From assembly GCA_947625935.1 (NCBI GenBank), contig CANQQE010000003.1, forward strand, positions 101,475 through 165,474: a DNA stretch of 64,000 nt, read 5' to 3'. Each line of letters starts with the position of its first letter. The first letter of the stretch is position 1. Positions 47,403 to 53,486 of this stretch are shown here, in pieces. The notes beneath the pieces were generated by a model. It did no database searches. It saw only the letters and a program-made list of their open reading frames with translations, and had not been told where the DNA came from. Origin of the DNA: an uncultured Muribaculaceae bacterium. Lineage in GTDB: Bacteria > Bacteroidota > Bacteroidia > Bacteroidales > Muribaculaceae. Both the position numbers and the translations under genes were made by a program.

Positions 47403-47456
47403 TGAGGTGTTTTCATAAATGATTAAGTAGAACTTTGTGTCGCCAGAGTGTCAGTG

Positions 47457-47654
47457 TCAATTGTTCTGAGGCGGCTCGCTTTCGCCGCCATCGGAGTTTG
47501 CGGAGGCCATTTTGGCCAGAAGCCATAGCTCTTTGATGTCGTTGACAAGCCCTGTTAGCTTGCGTTCCTGCGCTCTGTCGAGCTCTCGCCCTTCAATCAG
47601 ATGGAGGATTGTCTCGTAATCGAAGCCCGTGGTTGCTGTCGTGTCGTTGTTCAT
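47457..47654 (-). CDS. Small acidic protein, unknown
   Basis: A 65-residue protein with one helical stretch rich in charged residues (DYETILHLIEGRELDRAQERK, in part) and an acidic-polar tail. No signal or membrane span. Short proteins of this kind follow sigma-like genes in some Bacteroidales, but I know no function. It lies 73 bases after the sigma-like gene, in the same direction, and is closed by its own terminator. The ATG at 47654 was chosen; an upstream ATG adds three residues. Confidence 0.6.
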   Translation of the reverse strand: MNNDTTATTGFDYETILHLIEGRELDRAQERKLTGLVNDIKELWLLAKMASANSDGGESEPPQNN

Positions 47655-47727
47655 TCTCGGCAAATATTCGGTTTACATATAATTAGAGTGGGGGAGGCTC
47701 CTTAATCTGTCATCTGTTAAATAAAAA

Positions 47728-48315
47728 TTATTTAGTCGAGTCGCGGTATATGGCGATGAATTGTTGAATGGCTCGTCGCTTGAGGTTGTATATGTTGTCG
47801 ACGGTGGTTTCAAGCCTCTTTGCCGTCTCGACTGAGTCGTAGCCTTCGATAAGCATCAGTCGCAGCAGGCTGACATATCGTTTGTTGGGCATTGCGGCAA
47901 ATGTGTTTTCCACGTCGATAGATATTTCAATGTCAATGTCGGGTGACGATGTCTGCGGCTCTAAGTCGGTCATGTCGGCTGACGCCTGATGAAGTAGCCG
48001 CGGCCTGGCCTGCATGAAGTAGCGCCAGGCCACGACTGATACCCATGAGCTTAGCCGGCATCCGTTGAATGCGCTAAATGTGTCGAGTTTGCGCCAGTTG
48101 TCGGTGGAGAGATATAAGTATAGCTCGTTGACAACGTCGTCGTAGTCGAGTGTGCGTCCCATCAATGAGTTGAGGATGTCGGTCAGGGGATATCGGCATA
48201 GGTCGTAGAAGAAGCTGTGAGTGACCGTCGGATCGCCTGATTTCAGGCCATTGATGTATTGCTCATCGCGCAAAGGGGTGAAACCGGCAAGAGAGGATGT
48301 GGGTATCGGTGTCAT
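47728..48315 (-). CDS. ECF-like sigma-70 family protein 2
   Basis: The 195 residues have a region-2 core (DYDDVVNELYLYLSTDNW then SSWVSVVAWRYF) and a region-4-like helix-turn-helix near the C-terminus (EGYDSVETAKRLETTVDNIYNLKRRA, in part). The link between regions 2 and 4 is acidic. This is the sigma-70 family, ECF-like. It is separated from the caspase-CHAT unit by a strong terminator, so it is probably a separate transcript, with the small acidic gene after it. Target promoters unknown. Confidence 0.82.
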   Translation of the reverse strand: MTPIPTSSLAGFTPLRDEQYINGLKSGDPTVTHSFFYDLCRYPLTDILNSLMGRTLDYDDVVNELYLYLSTDNWRKLDTFSAFNGCRLSSWVSVVAWRYFMQARPRLLHQASADMTDLEPQTSSPDIDIEISIDVENTFAAMPNKRYVSLLRLMLIEGYDSVETAKRLETTVDNIYNLKRRAIQQFIAIYRDSTK

Positions 48316-48357
48316 TTTGGAGTTGCAAAAATGAATTACTTTTTTCTCCTTAATGAC

Positions 48358-48386
48358 AAAAAAGCGGGAGATGTAACCCCTCCCGC
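48358..48386 (-). terminator. Terminator of the caspase-CHAT-sigma unit
   Basis: GCGGGAG at 48364-48370 pairs with CTCCCGC at 48380-48386; on the minus strand the stem is followed by TTTTTT. Confidence 0.92.
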
Positions 48387-48426
48387 ATGAAAAAGTTTTG
48401 TAAACGGTATTAAGTCGGTTCTGAGA

Positions 48427-48990
48427 TTAGTTGAGTTTGCGCCAAAGCTCGTGGGCGTCTTTTTGGTGGGGGCCGATTTTGAAACGGTATTCGCGGATGA
48501 GCGGTAGGGCTTCGTCGTCGCGGTCGAGCGCAATCAGCAGGTTTATTTTTCGCCAACCGAGATTGTAGACTATTTCTTCGGTGAGCGCTTGTTCGTAGGC
48601 TTGCTCCTCGGTCGGTGACTCGACTGCTTTGAATGCGTTGATGTCGGAATCGTACCTGTCGCACAACTGATTGACTCTGTCAAGGGCTGATGAATATTGG
48701 CCGGATGTGATCATGCTGTCGATTTCAGGTATGCCGTTGTCGGCCGATCGGTATAGTATGGCCGATGAGTCGGGAGCCGGCAGGTCGGGCTGTTGTCTGC
48801 TGAAGAACAGCCATGCCGATAGCCCTGCGAGCATTGCGACGGCTGCGGCCGCAGAGGTGATGGCAATCCGCAGGCGGCGACGGCGGCGGTATCGGGCTTT
48901 TTCGTTTTCCCATCGTTTGATGCACTCGCTGTCGTGCGAGTATCGTTTCAGGGCCTCTATAGCTGCATCGGTAAAATAGTCGTCGTTCAT
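48427..48990 (-). CDS. Single-pass membrane protein with TPR-like outer domain
   Basis: A 187-residue protein. Residues 1-40 are polar and end in the basic RYRRRRRLR. One membrane span follows (about 42-64), so the N-terminus is predicted to be inside. The outer part (65-187) has helical pairs with TPR-like spacing (ITSGQYSSALDRVNQL, NLLIALDRDDEALPLIREY). It follows the ECF gene by 17 bases, the usual place for an anti-sigma factor, but I see no known anti-sigma zinc or FecR motif. It could anchor or sense the exported proteases. The ATG at 48990 was chosen because it starts the conserved-looking MNDDYFTDAAIEAL. Confidence 0.7.
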   Translation of the reverse strand: MNDDYFTDAAIEALKRYSHDSECIKRWENEKARYRRRRRLRIAITSAAAAVAMLAGLSAWLFFSRQQPDLPAPDSSAILYRSADNGIPEIDSMITSGQYSSALDRVNQLCDRYDSDINAFKAVESPTEEQAYEQALTEEIVYNLGWRKINLLIALDRDDEALPLIREYRFKIGPHQKDAHELWRKLN

Positions 48991-49007
48991 TTGTTGGTAT
49001 ATGCTGT

Positions 49008-49637
49008 TTAGTTTTTTAGTCGGCGTGTAATGCGTTCTTTGAGCGCGGCCATACATTTGGCTTTGCTGGATTTCAGGCCGTTTTTGCTCTTATTCTCAGG
49101 CCTCGCTTCGAGAATCTCGTCGAGAGATTTGCCTTCGACATAGAACATGGTCAGAATCTCGCGGCATCTTCGCGACATAGCGCTCACTTCCATGAGTGCT
49201 ATACCGTCGATGGTCATCTCGTAGTCTTCGGGGGCCATGTCAAGCGGTTCGTCTTGGCCTGTCGCCGGGGAGAATATGTCGTCTTCGCGCAGCAGTTCAA
49301 GGTTCTTGTATCGTGCCACGGCCATCAGGTAGGTGTGAAGCGTTGCTTTCATTGGTCTCGGGTTGCCGTCGCGGGAGATTCTGAACACTTTGCCTCCGCT
49401 AACAAAGATGTGTCGCGACTGTATCTCAGTCCACAGTTTCATGAATGATTCCTGAAACAGGTCGAGCGGCTGGCGGCTTGCTGATGAAAATTCAAATACC
49501 GCTTCGCGTTTTTCCATGAAGTAGCGTTGGCAGTCGAAGTAGAACCTACGTTCCACCGATTGGTCGCCGGCGATGATCCCGGCTATTATGTCGGGGTCGG
49601 ACAGCGGTTTTGACCGATGGAAGATAGATTTAGCCAT
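49008..49637 (-). CDS. ECF-type sigma factor of the caspase-CHAT unit
   Basis: The 209 residues have region 2 (DLFQESFMKLWTEI) and region 4 (SRRCREILTMFYVEGKSLDEI). Unusually, the region-4 helix-turn-helix is stretched by a basic, Asn/Lys-rich piece (ARPENKSKNGLKSSKAK). The linker is acidic. It is 2 bases from the CHAT gene upstream and 17 before the membrane protein gene, so all are likely made from one transcript. The start ATG 49637 is preferred since the frame extends upstream only into the CHAT gene. Confidence 0.87.
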   Translation of the reverse strand: MAKSIFHRSKPLSDPDIIAGIIAGDQSVERRFYFDCQRYFMEKREAVFEFSSASRQPLDLFQESFMKLWTEIQSRHIFVSGGKVFRISRDGNPRPMKATLHTYLMAVARYKNLELLREDDIFSPATGQDEPLDMAPEDYEMTIDGIALMEVSAMSRRCREILTMFYVEGKSLDEILEARPENKSKNGLKSSKAKCMAALKERITRRLKN

Positions 49638-49639
49638 AA

Positions 49640-52543
49640 TCAGTCGACCATGATAAAGCCCGCCCAATAAAACGGCTCGGGATACACGGCTCTGATTGCG
49701 GTCTTTGCCTTGTTGAAGGCGTCGCGCTTGTCCCAGTCGGAAGATGGCAGATTGTCAAAGAAACTTATCATGAACTCTTTAGACACCAGATCGCTCACTT
49801 GCCAAAGGCTCATCACGAGGGTTTGCGCACCGGCTTTTTTGAAAGCGCGCTGCAATCCGTATAGGCCATCGTTTGTGGCTTGTCCGCAGGCTGTCTCGCA
49901 GGCAGATAGGGCAACCAGTCCTGTGGCCGAGAGGTCGAGATGGGAAATGTCGTCGGACGTCAGCAGGCCGCCCCTCACGCCTTCGGGAAGGTCGCGCCCA
50001 GTCCATTCGGCATTGCCTCCGGCCATCACCAGTCCGGTGAGATACATGATGTCGTCATACCGGGCCAAAGTGGTGTGGCTCGGCGCATGGTCAGGGGTGT
50101 AGAAGAACCCGTGGGTCGACATCAGCATCATGTCGGGGGCGTTTCCGCTCAGACTCATGAATGCGTCCTCTGAACCGTTCAACTTGGTGTAGAAATTCAC
50201 GTTCACATTATTATGAGCGAGAATGCGGCCTATTTCTGTCACTTCCTGGGAAGAATAATGCAATTTTTTGAAAATGGAGTCGCCTCTGAGCCTATCGATT
50301 CCTCTGTTGGAGGCGAATGCGGGTATGAGATACCGCCGGCTCTGCGCTTCCATATCAATGATATCGACATCGTAGTCAATGTCTCCGAACAGCGCGGCGG
50401 TGGCCCGTTCGTTGAGCCGTCGGTTGTGTCGTATGGATACGACCTCCTTTGCTGACGTGAGTCTGATTATTTCATGCTTGTGGCCGAGGGTAGAGCCGTC
50501 GGGCATGGGTATTGAGGAAATCGCTATCTGGTGGATGGCTCCAGACGGTATTATATAGATGCGTCGGACGGTGTCGGCATAAGGCCGGATGGAGTCCCAA
50601 AATAATCCGAGCATATCGGCCGAATAACGGGACTCGTAAAGGCGATCGGGCTTTCCGTTAACTTTTTTCAGAAGCGCGTCGATTGAGTCGCTTGTTGTCA
50701 CAGGAATCAAGCGGGGGTAGTTCCATCCGTTGCCCATCACATATGCCACATATTGCCTGCGGTCGCCCGGGAGCCAGTAGTCGGCGAAATCGACGAGTAG
50801 TTCTCCGGGTCGCAGTGATCCCGTGACATCTTTGAATGTGAGCGTGTCGATCGGCTCGTTTAGCCCCATGTCGTGTAGTCGTTTCGTCAGTTTGTGGTCG
50901 ATGGCGTTCATCTCTGCGAATGCCATGCCGAGCCTTGTGTCGGTATTGCTCTCTGACAGTTTAGACCTGAGTTTAAGCAGCCGTTGGTATTGCTCGATAA
51001 GTAGTGGATCGGATGAAGCGTAAATCGCTGATTCCCATGATTTCTCTGATGAGAGAAGCAGCCCTTTGGAAAATAGGAGCGCATTGTAGGCGGCGAGTGA
51101 AAATTCGTCGTGGGTCAGATGATTGTTTATCCCGTAGGCCGACATTGCCCAGAAAATTGATGAAATGTCGTTCCATCGCGATTCCCTTTCGGCCGATGAC
51201 GCCAACCGCAGCTCTCGGCGCGCCGCATCGAGCATTAGTTCGGCCGCTTGGCGGTAATGGCGGCTTCCGCTGTCGGTTTTGCCCATAGCTCCTTCAATAT
51301 TAGCGAGATAGCCGATGGCCTCGGCATATTTTTTGGACCTTTCTCCGTATGTCGAACGGCATCGGGCGGCATATTCATTGTAGATTTCAAGAGCTTCGGC
51401 TTTTTTGCCGGCTCGGGATAAGGCACCGGCATGGAGCGACATGACCGAGAGCGCATGATGACGGGCTTCGTTTGTATCGCAAAGGGCGAGAATCTTTCGG
51501 GCTGTCGAGAAGTCGGAGGCTGCGTCATCATATTTGCCGAAGTCCATGTTCCACTCGCCGCGCTGAGTGTAAAGTCTCATTTTAGTCAACCCTTTGAGGT
51601 TAGGATTGATTTTCAGCATCAGGAACATTGAGTCGGCGCAACGAAAGCAGTTGGCTTCGTCATGGAGCTTGGCGTAGATGGCCGCCTGTCCACCGAATGG
51701 CCTGAAACGGTTGGGGTCATCAGGTTTGAATCCGCGGCGGAATATGTTGACGCAACTGTCGCCGTAGGCCAGCGCCTCGTCGTAGCACTTCATTTTTATG
51801 GCATTGTCGCGTAGCTTGAAATAGGCGTCGTGGTAACGGGAACCGGGATTGGCGGGATTGATATATGTGATTGCTTGCCTGTAGAATTGCTCGGCTTTCT
51901 GATATTTGCCTTGTTGTGATGCAAAATTGCCGTTCATCATGGATCTTTGAAATCGGAGAGCGTTGTCATCGGACAAAGCGAGCAGCGAATCGAGTTTGAT
52001 GTTAAGTTCGTTTTTCTCGATCCATGCGCTTTGTTTGTCTCTCATCAGAATCATGTCAATCAATATCAGTCCCTGTAGTTGACGGTCGCTGATTTCGCAG
52101 GCTAAGTCATGTGCTCTGCAGTATAGTGGCAGCGCGCGGTCGTATAGCCTCAATTTTAGGTCGTTTAGGCTTGCCATGCGTCGAAGTGCGAGGGCCATAT
52201 CCCTGGTCGATCTGATGCCGGTGAATATCTCGAGGGCTTCGGTGTAGTGGGAGTATGCCACCGACAGCGAGGCGTCCATCTCGGCCTGCATACCTTCCAT
52301 ATAGTGGGAGTTGCCTATCGCTCTGAGGCATTTGCGTTTCAACAGGGAGTCATCGGCCGCAAGCTCTTTTCCCATCGAGAAGTGTTCGCGTGCCTCTTTG
52401 AAACGCTTTTTCCCGAGGAGCTTCACTCCTTTGAAGCATATGTCTGAAATTTTTGCTTGTGTGATGCTGTCGGCCGGAGTGTGTGATGCCGTTGCCGGCA
52501 AAATCATAACAAATAAGATGAAAATAGTGACTAAAGTTCGCAT
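49640..52543 (-). CDS. Exported TPR-CHAT peptidase
   Basis: The 967 residues start with a signal peptide (ends near PATASH). Residues about 30-480 are TPR-like repeats (FKEAREHFSMGKEL; SVAYSHYTEALEIF; KYQKAEQFYRQAI). A CHAT domain fills the last 320 residues, with the catalytic dyad His811 (STHGFF) and Cys882 (LSACETA). CHAT is a caspase-like cysteine protease fold (separase, Craspase). A signal peptide means this one probably acts in the periplasm or outside. It is packed with an exported caspase 10 bases upstream and an ECF sigma gene 2 bases downstream. Confidence 0.92.
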   Translation of the reverse strand: MRTLVTIFILFVMILPATASHTPADSITQAKISDICFKGVKLLGKKRFKEAREHFSMGKELAADDSLLKRKCLRAIGNSHYMEGMQAEMDASLSVAYSHYTEALEIFTGIRSTRDMALALRRMASLNDLKLRLYDRALPLYCRAHDLACEISDRQLQGLILIDMILMRDKQSAWIEKNELNIKLDSLLALSDDNALRFQRSMMNGNFASQQGKYQKAEQFYRQAITYINPANPGSRYHDAYFKLRDNAIKMKCYDEALAYGDSCVNIFRRGFKPDDPNRFRPFGGQAAIYAKLHDEANCFRCADSMFLMLKINPNLKGLTKMRLYTQRGEWNMDFGKYDDAASDFSTARKILALCDTNEARHHALSVMSLHAGALSRAGKKAEALEIYNEYAARCRSTYGERSKKYAEAIGYLANIEGAMGKTDSGSRHYRQAAELMLDAARRELRLASSAERESRWNDISSIFWAMSAYGINNHLTHDEFSLAAYNALLFSKGLLLSSEKSWESAIYASSDPLLIEQYQRLLKLRSKLSESNTDTRLGMAFAEMNAIDHKLTKRLHDMGLNEPIDTLTFKDVTGSLRPGELLVDFADYWLPGDRRQYVAYVMGNGWNYPRLIPVTTSDSIDALLKKVNGKPDRLYESRYSADMLGLFWDSIRPYADTVRRIYIIPSGAIHQIAISSIPMPDGSTLGHKHEIIRLTSAKEVVSIRHNRRLNERATAALFGDIDYDVDIIDMEAQSRRYLIPAFASNRGIDRLRGDSIFKKLHYSSQEVTEIGRILAHNNVNVNFYTKLNGSEDAFMSLSGNAPDMMLMSTHGFFYTPDHAPSHTTLARYDDIMYLTGLVMAGGNAEWTGRDLPEGVRGGLLTSDDISHLDLSATGLVALSACETACGQATNDGLYGLQRAFKKAGAQTLVMSLWQVSDLVSKEFMISFFDNLPSSDWDKRDAFNKAKTAIRAVYPEPFYWAGFIMVD

Positions 52544-52553
52544 GGAGGTAGTT

Positions 52554-53408
52554 TTAGAACAGCGAGTTCAGGGAGTAAATTGTGGTCTCTCCCGAGAGAG
52601 TTGGCGTCTGAGGCAGGGTTCCTCGGTTGTCGTTAACGTAGTTTACAAGCCTCCCCATTATCTGAATATTGTTAAGTCGCGGGAGATGCTCGCTCATGGC
52701 CGACAGAGCATAAGAAAGCATTCCGAAATGTCCGCCGGGAGTCTTTATTTCGCAATTTAGCTGGAAATTTTTGCAAGCACTGAGAGTCAGCCAGTTTTCA
52801 ACGATTTTTTTAGTGCGTCGGGGTGTTGAAGTGGTGGGTATGACGAAGTTGTTGATTGCACCTCTGACGCAATCATCGCCGATGGCGCGTGACGAGTCTC
52901 CGCTATGGCAGGCGTCGACGACCACCAGGATTTGCCCTTTACAGCCAATTTTCCGTTTGATTTTGGTGAGCCATAGTCCGACTTCATCGTCGGTCAAGTG
53001 CTTCTCACCCTTATAATCATCTGAATAGCTTTGCATCGCATCGTAAGCCACCCATGTTTCATCCCATCCGTCATCTTCATCACCGTTGAGGTCGGTCATG
53101 CGCTGTCCGTGTCCCGAGAAATGGATGTAAATCTGGTCATTTACACAACTTTTTTCGCATAAATTTGACAATGAGGATATTATCGCCGCTTTAGTGGCTT
53201 GTTCGTTGACGAGTGTCGATATGTCGTCATACCCGTGATTGCGCAGCATCGATTTTATCATGGGGACATCCCTGTCGCCATGTATCGCACTCCAATTTGA
53301 ATCGAGGTATTTGCCCAAGCCTATGACGAGGGCGCGGCGTGTCTGAGCTTCGCCGTTCAAGGCGAGCAGCAATGTGATGATGTATAATATAGTTTTAGCG
53401 TAATTCAT
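52554..53408 (-). CDS. Exported caspase-like (C14) peptidase
   Basis: The 284 residues have a signal peptide (about 1-21, ends NGEAQ) and a p20-like domain with the catalytic dyad His100 (FSGHGQRM) and Cys167 (VVDACHSGD). An acidic insert DLNGDEDDGWDETW follows the His, as in metacaspases and bacterial type-I orthocaspases. The p10-like part follows from about 200. It is the first gene of the unit with CHAT, sigma and membrane protein. Upstream is a long hairpin after recJ; I find no clear promoter. Confidence 0.92.
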   Translation of the reverse strand: MNYAKTILYIITLLLALNGEAQTRRALVIGLGKYLDSNWSAIHGDRDVPMIKSMLRNHGYDDISTLVNEQATKAAIISSLSNLCEKSCVNDQIYIHFSGHGQRMTDLNGDEDDGWDETWVAYDAMQSYSDDYKGEKHLTDDEVGLWLTKIKRKIGCKGQILVVVDACHSGDSSRAIGDDCVRGAINNFVIPTTSTPRRTKKIVENWLTLSACKNFQLNCEIKTPGGHFGMLSYALSAMSEHLPRLNNIQIMGRLVNYVNDNRGTLPQTPTLSGETTIYSLNSLF

Positions 53409-53432
53409 CTCTGTGATAAAGGTGGTTGGATG

Positions 53433-53486
53433 TTAAGTCGTAAGTTCCCGAAGATGTGTGGTATCTCCGGGAACTTACGGACTTAA
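53433..53486. repeat. Very long near-perfect hairpin between recJ and the caspase gene
   Basis: TTAAGTC-GTAAGTTCCCG (53433 on) pairs with CGGGAACTTAC-GGACTTAA (to 53486) with one bulged base; inner AGAT/ATCT pairs extend the stem around a 7-base loop. The outer end includes the recJ stop codon. It lacks a T-run on either strand. It may be a terminator of Bacteroidota type, an mRNA stabiliser or an attenuator. Confidence 0.7.

Follow-up and report, generated by a model that had tools for sequence, protein, structure and literature searches.

Craspase, the type III-E CRISPR system also known as Craspase/CASP (Cas7-11, the TPR-CHAT protein Csx29, Csx30 and CASP-sigma), couples proteolysis to transcription: a TPR-CHAT protease is reported to cut an inhibitor that restrains an extracytoplasmic function (ECF)-like sigma factor (PMC10028731). 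A TPR-CHAT protein and a sigma factor are likewise encoded together, with a putative inhibitor, in the DNA studied here, a 64,000-nucleotide stretch (the window) from an uncultured Muribaculaceae bacterium (contig CANQQE010000003.1, positions 101,475 to 165,474). However, no Cas7-11 gene is present in this unit or in the surrounding recQ-recJ block, its proteases are predicted to be exported and the inhibitor candidate to span the membrane, and it includes a metacaspase, which recurs more constantly than the TPR-CHAT protease. The cut in Csx30 falls between residues 427 and 429, whereas the site predicted here is an arginine followed by a small residue (Arg-small). ECF54 sigma factors have genes for CHAT proteins, subtilases and carboxypeptidases nearby; proteolytic control has been proposed for them, and no anti-sigma factor is noted for them (PMC8999054). 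The locus resembles ECF54 in having an ECF sigma factor with a nearby CHAT gene, a likeness of gene neighbourhood, but differs in its regular membrane partner.

The sigma-E pathway of RseA, DegS and RseP, in which DegS is the protease that cuts RseA first, provides a further comparison, together with RsiW. An M50 protease is available here too, and the locus would share with this pathway a single-helix membrane anti-sigma factor (here predicted) and an initial cut on the outer side, close to the membrane (here predicted at an Arg-small bond 12-43 residues past the helix). Instead of a serine protease, however, the first enzyme to cut would be a clan CD caspase whose gene lies with that of its substrate. 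It is concluded that the module is probably an envelope-to-transcription unit, in which the caspase would cut the membrane protein after Arg81, a DegS-like first cut, and so free the sigma factor. The parts concerned are:

52554..53408, minus strand: exported metacaspase-like caspase, 284 amino acids (His100 codon 53109-53111, Cys167 codon 52908-52910)
49640..52543, minus strand: exported TPR-CHAT protease, 967 amino acids (His811 codon 50111-50113, Cys882 codon 49898-49900)
49008..49637, minus strand: divergent ECF-type sigma factor (SIG), 209 amino acids from its ATG
48427..48990, minus strand: single-helix membrane protein, predicted anti-sigma factor, 187 amino acids (cytoplasmic 1-43, helix 44-62, outside 63-187)
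48745..48750, minus strand: Arg81-Ser82 (ILYR-SADN), the bond of the membrane protein predicted to be cut, at the Arg-small column conserved in relatives

The module and its proteins in relatives

The initial annotation of this DNA had made its proposal depend on conserved synteny, which was found across relatives. A CHAT search of 298 genomes of the family gave matches in 64 at 1e-15, with seven close relatives besides the window. The gene order is caspase-sigma-membrane protein-CHAT in L052-L055 and L057 and, after reading hidden sigma factor and membrane protein open reading frames (ORFs), in L056; the contig of L058 starts within CHAT. The window differs in its order, caspase-CHAT-sigma-membrane protein. 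A scan of genome contigs using the caspase alignment gave 174 relatives, from which 80 loci were kept, nearly all labelled Bacteroidales or groups within it; five are the same records as L052-L054, L056 and L057. Matches on the strand of the caspase, counted without correction for contig ends, were found for the sigma factor in 64 loci (16 had none), for the membrane protein in 62, for CHAT in 49 and for SIG2, a second sigma factor of the window, in 10, some contigs being short. None of these four proteins gave an opposite-strand match in the 80 loci. The caspase is divergently oriented in L177 and L190, which belong to a more distant group. The comparison shows that genes for the caspase, the sigma factor and the predicted single-helix membrane protein recur together, often with TPR-CHAT added. 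Since a CHAT match is present in only 49 of the 80 loci, the cascade of two proteases, caspase and CHAT, that had been suggested is not the core of the module.

The caspase matches Pfam Peptidase_C14 above the cut-off (3.9e-12). Both catalytic dyads and both export signals, as initially annotated, held up in alignments of 59 caspases and 30 CHAT proteins selected from the fetched loci. His100/Cys167 is invariant in 59/59 caspases and His811/Cys882 in 30/30 CHAT proteins, and a hydrophobic, signal-peptide-like N-terminus, scored by hydrophobicity count only, occurs in 56/59 and 28/30, respectively. D47, S98 and D165 of the caspase are also invariant and align, with an inferred numbering offset, with three of the four S1-pocket residues of TbMCA2; the fourth, Cys92, has no counterpart. 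The caspase has the fold and His/Cys dyad of metacaspase-like C14B peptidases as well as their acidic S1 pocket for Arg or Lys, and is metacaspase-like with a predicted Arg/Lys-binding S1 pocket. The fold, the dyad and most S1-pocket residues are shared with the metacaspases Yca1, TbMCA2 and AtMCA4/9 and with MALT1, from which it differs in being exported and encoded with a sigma factor. With the caspase profile at 1e-30, 9/395 genomes of the phylum match, its own genome among them; the other eight lie outside the order of the window, with open frames of 681-855 codons around seven of the matches and of 281 codons around the eighth. Plasmid records gave 93 matches, all below 60% identity, and the organisms listed for them belong to other groups. 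Arg182-Gly183 of the caspase, 15 residues past the active Cys, is invariant in 59/59 and may be a processing site or merely structural. It was not upheld as a further cut site, Arg182 lying within a confidently modelled strand.

TPR-CHAT matches Pfam CHAT above the cut-off (1.6e-41). Its CHAT fold matches Csx29, and the CHAT domain sequence by itself gave no useful match in the PDB. The anti-sigma factor DdvA (PMC4374960) ranked second in Foldseek but was rejected as a CHAT homologue because of its poor fit (TM 0.23); it is not among the 50 VIA matches listed, which excludes nothing. The CHAT reading frame is broken into pieces in L120 and L103, and in other genomes of the family (L064, L063, L059) long genes for exported TPR-CHAT proteins stand next to one another in groups of two to four. 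In CHAT-less modules two exported proteins of ~215-240 and 490 amino acids follow the membrane protein, for example at L100:12260-14428 and, in the same place, in L081, L083, L085, L086, L104, L106, L110, L116, L118, L121, L125 and L130, among others. The larger protein has weak transglutaminase-like matches only.

SIG gave weak sigma factor matches below cut-off, to Sigma70_r4_2 (0.0021, Pfam) and sigma70-ECF (5.3e-6, NCBIfam); matches to SIG better than 1e-50 occur in 10/298 family genomes. SIG2 has matches at 1e-10 in 33/298 genomes, for a minority of which the neighbourhoods were read. The three best of all are SIG2 of the window itself and two genes that adjoin the module in G177 and G285, so that SIG2 is treated as belonging to the module in the window and, in other genomes, as a partner only now and then. 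At the ten caspase loci with SIG2, two of them weak matches, it lies within 200 nucleotides in three and within 5 kb in seven. L163, L165, L166 and L167, whose fetched stretches contain neither caspase nor CHAT, have a related pair of sigma factor and membrane protein with another shared linker.

The conserved arginine of the membrane protein

The membrane protein had been described as a TPR protein; the window protein has no Pfam TPR match, and an ortholog has weak ones below cut-off. Two orthologs gave weak zf-HC2 matches. The 68 membrane proteins found were reduced to 61 by removing seven at >80% identity, and to 50 near-family proteins by leaving out 11 divergent ones. Among these 50, Lys plus Arg average 4.56 in the 15 residues before the helix and 0.9 after it, and 48/50 show this sense; with one helix and positive charge before it, the C-terminus should be outside. 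The cytoplasmic part carries a helix pattern of Arg (0.80), Lys (0.70), Met (0.68) and Trp (0.62) at residues 17, 20, 24 and 27 of the window protein, a candidate sigma-binding face. As that protein has Y, D, I and W there, the pattern is only partly kept.

Past the helix, one aligned column is Arg in 50/50 near-family proteins (R81 in the window), the next best column besides the start being an Ala in the helix (0.88). The residue after it is Gly in 33, Ser in 8, Ala in 7 and Thr in 2, and the residue before it is mostly Phe, Tyr, Val or Met. The distance from helix to Arg is 12-43 residues (median 20), the linker varying in length. The motif had first been noticed in a set that left out five duplicate loci. 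In the 61 deduplicated proteins, Arg-[GSAD] occurs in the tested stretch of 57, while 2000 shuffles gave a mean of 30.9 and a maximum of 43. Arg-[GSAT] is likewise found in 57/61, L059, L120, L136 and L151 lacking it. Because the membrane proteins were first found by a profile containing the Arg, the count was redone for the 80 loci with the protein picked by its place beside the sigma gene, which gave 60/63 (not deduplicated). L120 has a membrane protein without the Arg motif despite an open caspase frame.

The relation between arginine and caspase was followed in a control sample, in which 42 of 63 sigma gene places were read (L059, L060 and 40 newly fetched ones), with the partner picked by position and hydrophobicity alone; L161 and L179 had no partner. 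Arg-[GSAD] was present in 16/17 partners with a caspase match in the stretch, the exception being L190 with Lys-Gly-Gly, and in 5/23 partners without one (Fisher p 4.7e-6, or 2.9e-5 minus three loci that overlap other sets, in a test that ignores relatedness). Within one ortholog group, L177 (RGG) and L190 (KGG) have the caspase, and the 7.7-kb contig of L191 (SVE; 45-46% identity to these two) contains none. L171, near the family of the window, has neither caspase nor motif in a 3-kb contig. L059 has Lys-Gly and no caspase in its fetched stretch, which stops just upstream of its sigma gene. The sample supports the view that the Arg tracks the caspase.

Setting of the locus

The initial annotation rightly described four consecutive genes with intergenic gaps of 10, 2 and 17 bases, but the four do not form the full set, as it overlooked SIG2. 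The remaining features are:

48364..48386, minus strand: intrinsic-terminator-like hairpin after the four-gene unit, 8 pairs, 6 of them G-C, then T6
47728..48315, minus strand: SIG2, a second sigma factor, which shares its inserted block with the four-gene unit
47403..53482, no strand: five-gene island between recQ and recJ, which are adjacent in two congeneric genomes

The closing terminator that had been noted is present as a hairpin at 48386-48364, the top of 10 listed sites, but the number of such sites is not above that in shuffles (7.1 +/- 3.3). RecJ directly adjoins recQ in the two congeneric genomes, whereas five genes lie in between in the window (names by Pfam); a third congeneric genome (68% complete) has no recJ match. 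Besides ORFs overlapping them, the block contains these five genes only and no other large ORF. A near-perfect inverted repeat of 39 nucleotides, without a T-run, lies at 53440-53478 between recJ and the caspase gene. It was rejected as a repeat family, as its exact arms occur once only in its own genome, at the stringency of exact arms. Several of 66 stretches upstream of caspase genes contain, by eye, a TAnnTTTG-like box, which we take to be the motif of the main Bacteroidota promoter; no shared ECF promoter motif was recognised by eye in these 66 stretches.

Proposed release of the sigma factor and its alternatives

In the proposed mechanism the cytoplasmic N-terminus of the membrane protein would hold the sigma factor. 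Upon an envelope signal the exported caspase would cut on the C-terminal side of the conserved Arg, at R81-S82 in the window protein, leaving a shortened membrane protein open to a site-2 protease, and the sigma factor would be released. The genome has one gene for an M50 (site-2) protease (PF02163, above cut-off), which is weak evidence, since all 14 control genomes have one too. TPR-CHAT would, less surely, act as the sensor, activate the caspase or be another of its substrates, and SIG2 may serve as an output sigma factor or one of a second tier. That a cut outside the membrane frees the sigma factor was already suggested by the initial annotation, and the conserved Arg-small site linked to caspase presence supports this part. 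Its placement of the cut in the outer TPR domain is not borne out: the predicted cut lies in the linker that joins the helix to the TPR-like region, and that region can be absent (13/50 proteins are short). Two points weigh against the proposal. All four proteins without the motif are among the 11 left out of the 50/50 count, and an argument for a further cut site in the CHAT loop fell to its control, windows of the CHAT core giving an equal count.

It is rather unlikely that no proteolysis takes place, the outer part sensing a ligand and changing shape, with caspase and CHAT as co-made effectors and the Arg structural or used for docking. Cleavage at the Arg is after all a prediction, and most proteins have a further region past it (median 106 residues). 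However, a variable linker precedes the Arg, which is kept even when little follows (fewer than 45 residues in 13/50), and it is changed or lost in the caspase-less loci L191 and L171. It is unlikely that TPR-CHAT does the cutting, as an envelope counterpart of Craspase, and that the caspase only activates CHAT: the Arg appears to track the caspase, 31 of the 80 caspase loci have no CHAT match (some contigs being short), and all 21 deduplicated membrane proteins from such loci keep Arg-[GSAT]. A defence or cell-death system, with proteases acting on the cell upon infection and the sigma factor only setting dosage, is very unlikely, for although the island is patchy, a PADLOC caspase model matches the caspase (2.6e-15) and defence systems with caspase or CHAT proteases are known, no other part has a PADLOC match at 0.001, the caspase is unmatched at 1e-5 in 50,697 phage records (which says little), and Pfam finds neither pore-former nor nuclease among the five proteins, as initially annotated for such effectors.

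Extending the proposed caspase cut, it is tentatively suggested that the caspase is a dedicated signalling protease making the first, Arg-directed cut in a membrane anti-sigma factor, with the exported, separase-like TPR-CHAT as trigger or amplifier and SIG2 as output. Sigma control by caspase/CHAT modules would then be a general design for envelope signalling in Bacteroidales, with Craspase as its cytoplasmic, RNA-triggered counterpart. To our knowledge, few bacterial caspases and CHAT proteases have an established natural substrate. Besides Craspase, the literature covered, which was partial and included few subscription journals and preprints, yielded no account of an anti-sigma factor acted on by a caspase or metacaspase. 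In the present case conservation, together with natural cases of loss, predicts a single substrate and a single bond, which makes the idea testable by one peptide or point mutation. If true, caspase-type proteolysis would have a place in routine bacterial gene regulation besides its part in cell death and defence, and Craspase would gain an envelope counterpart.
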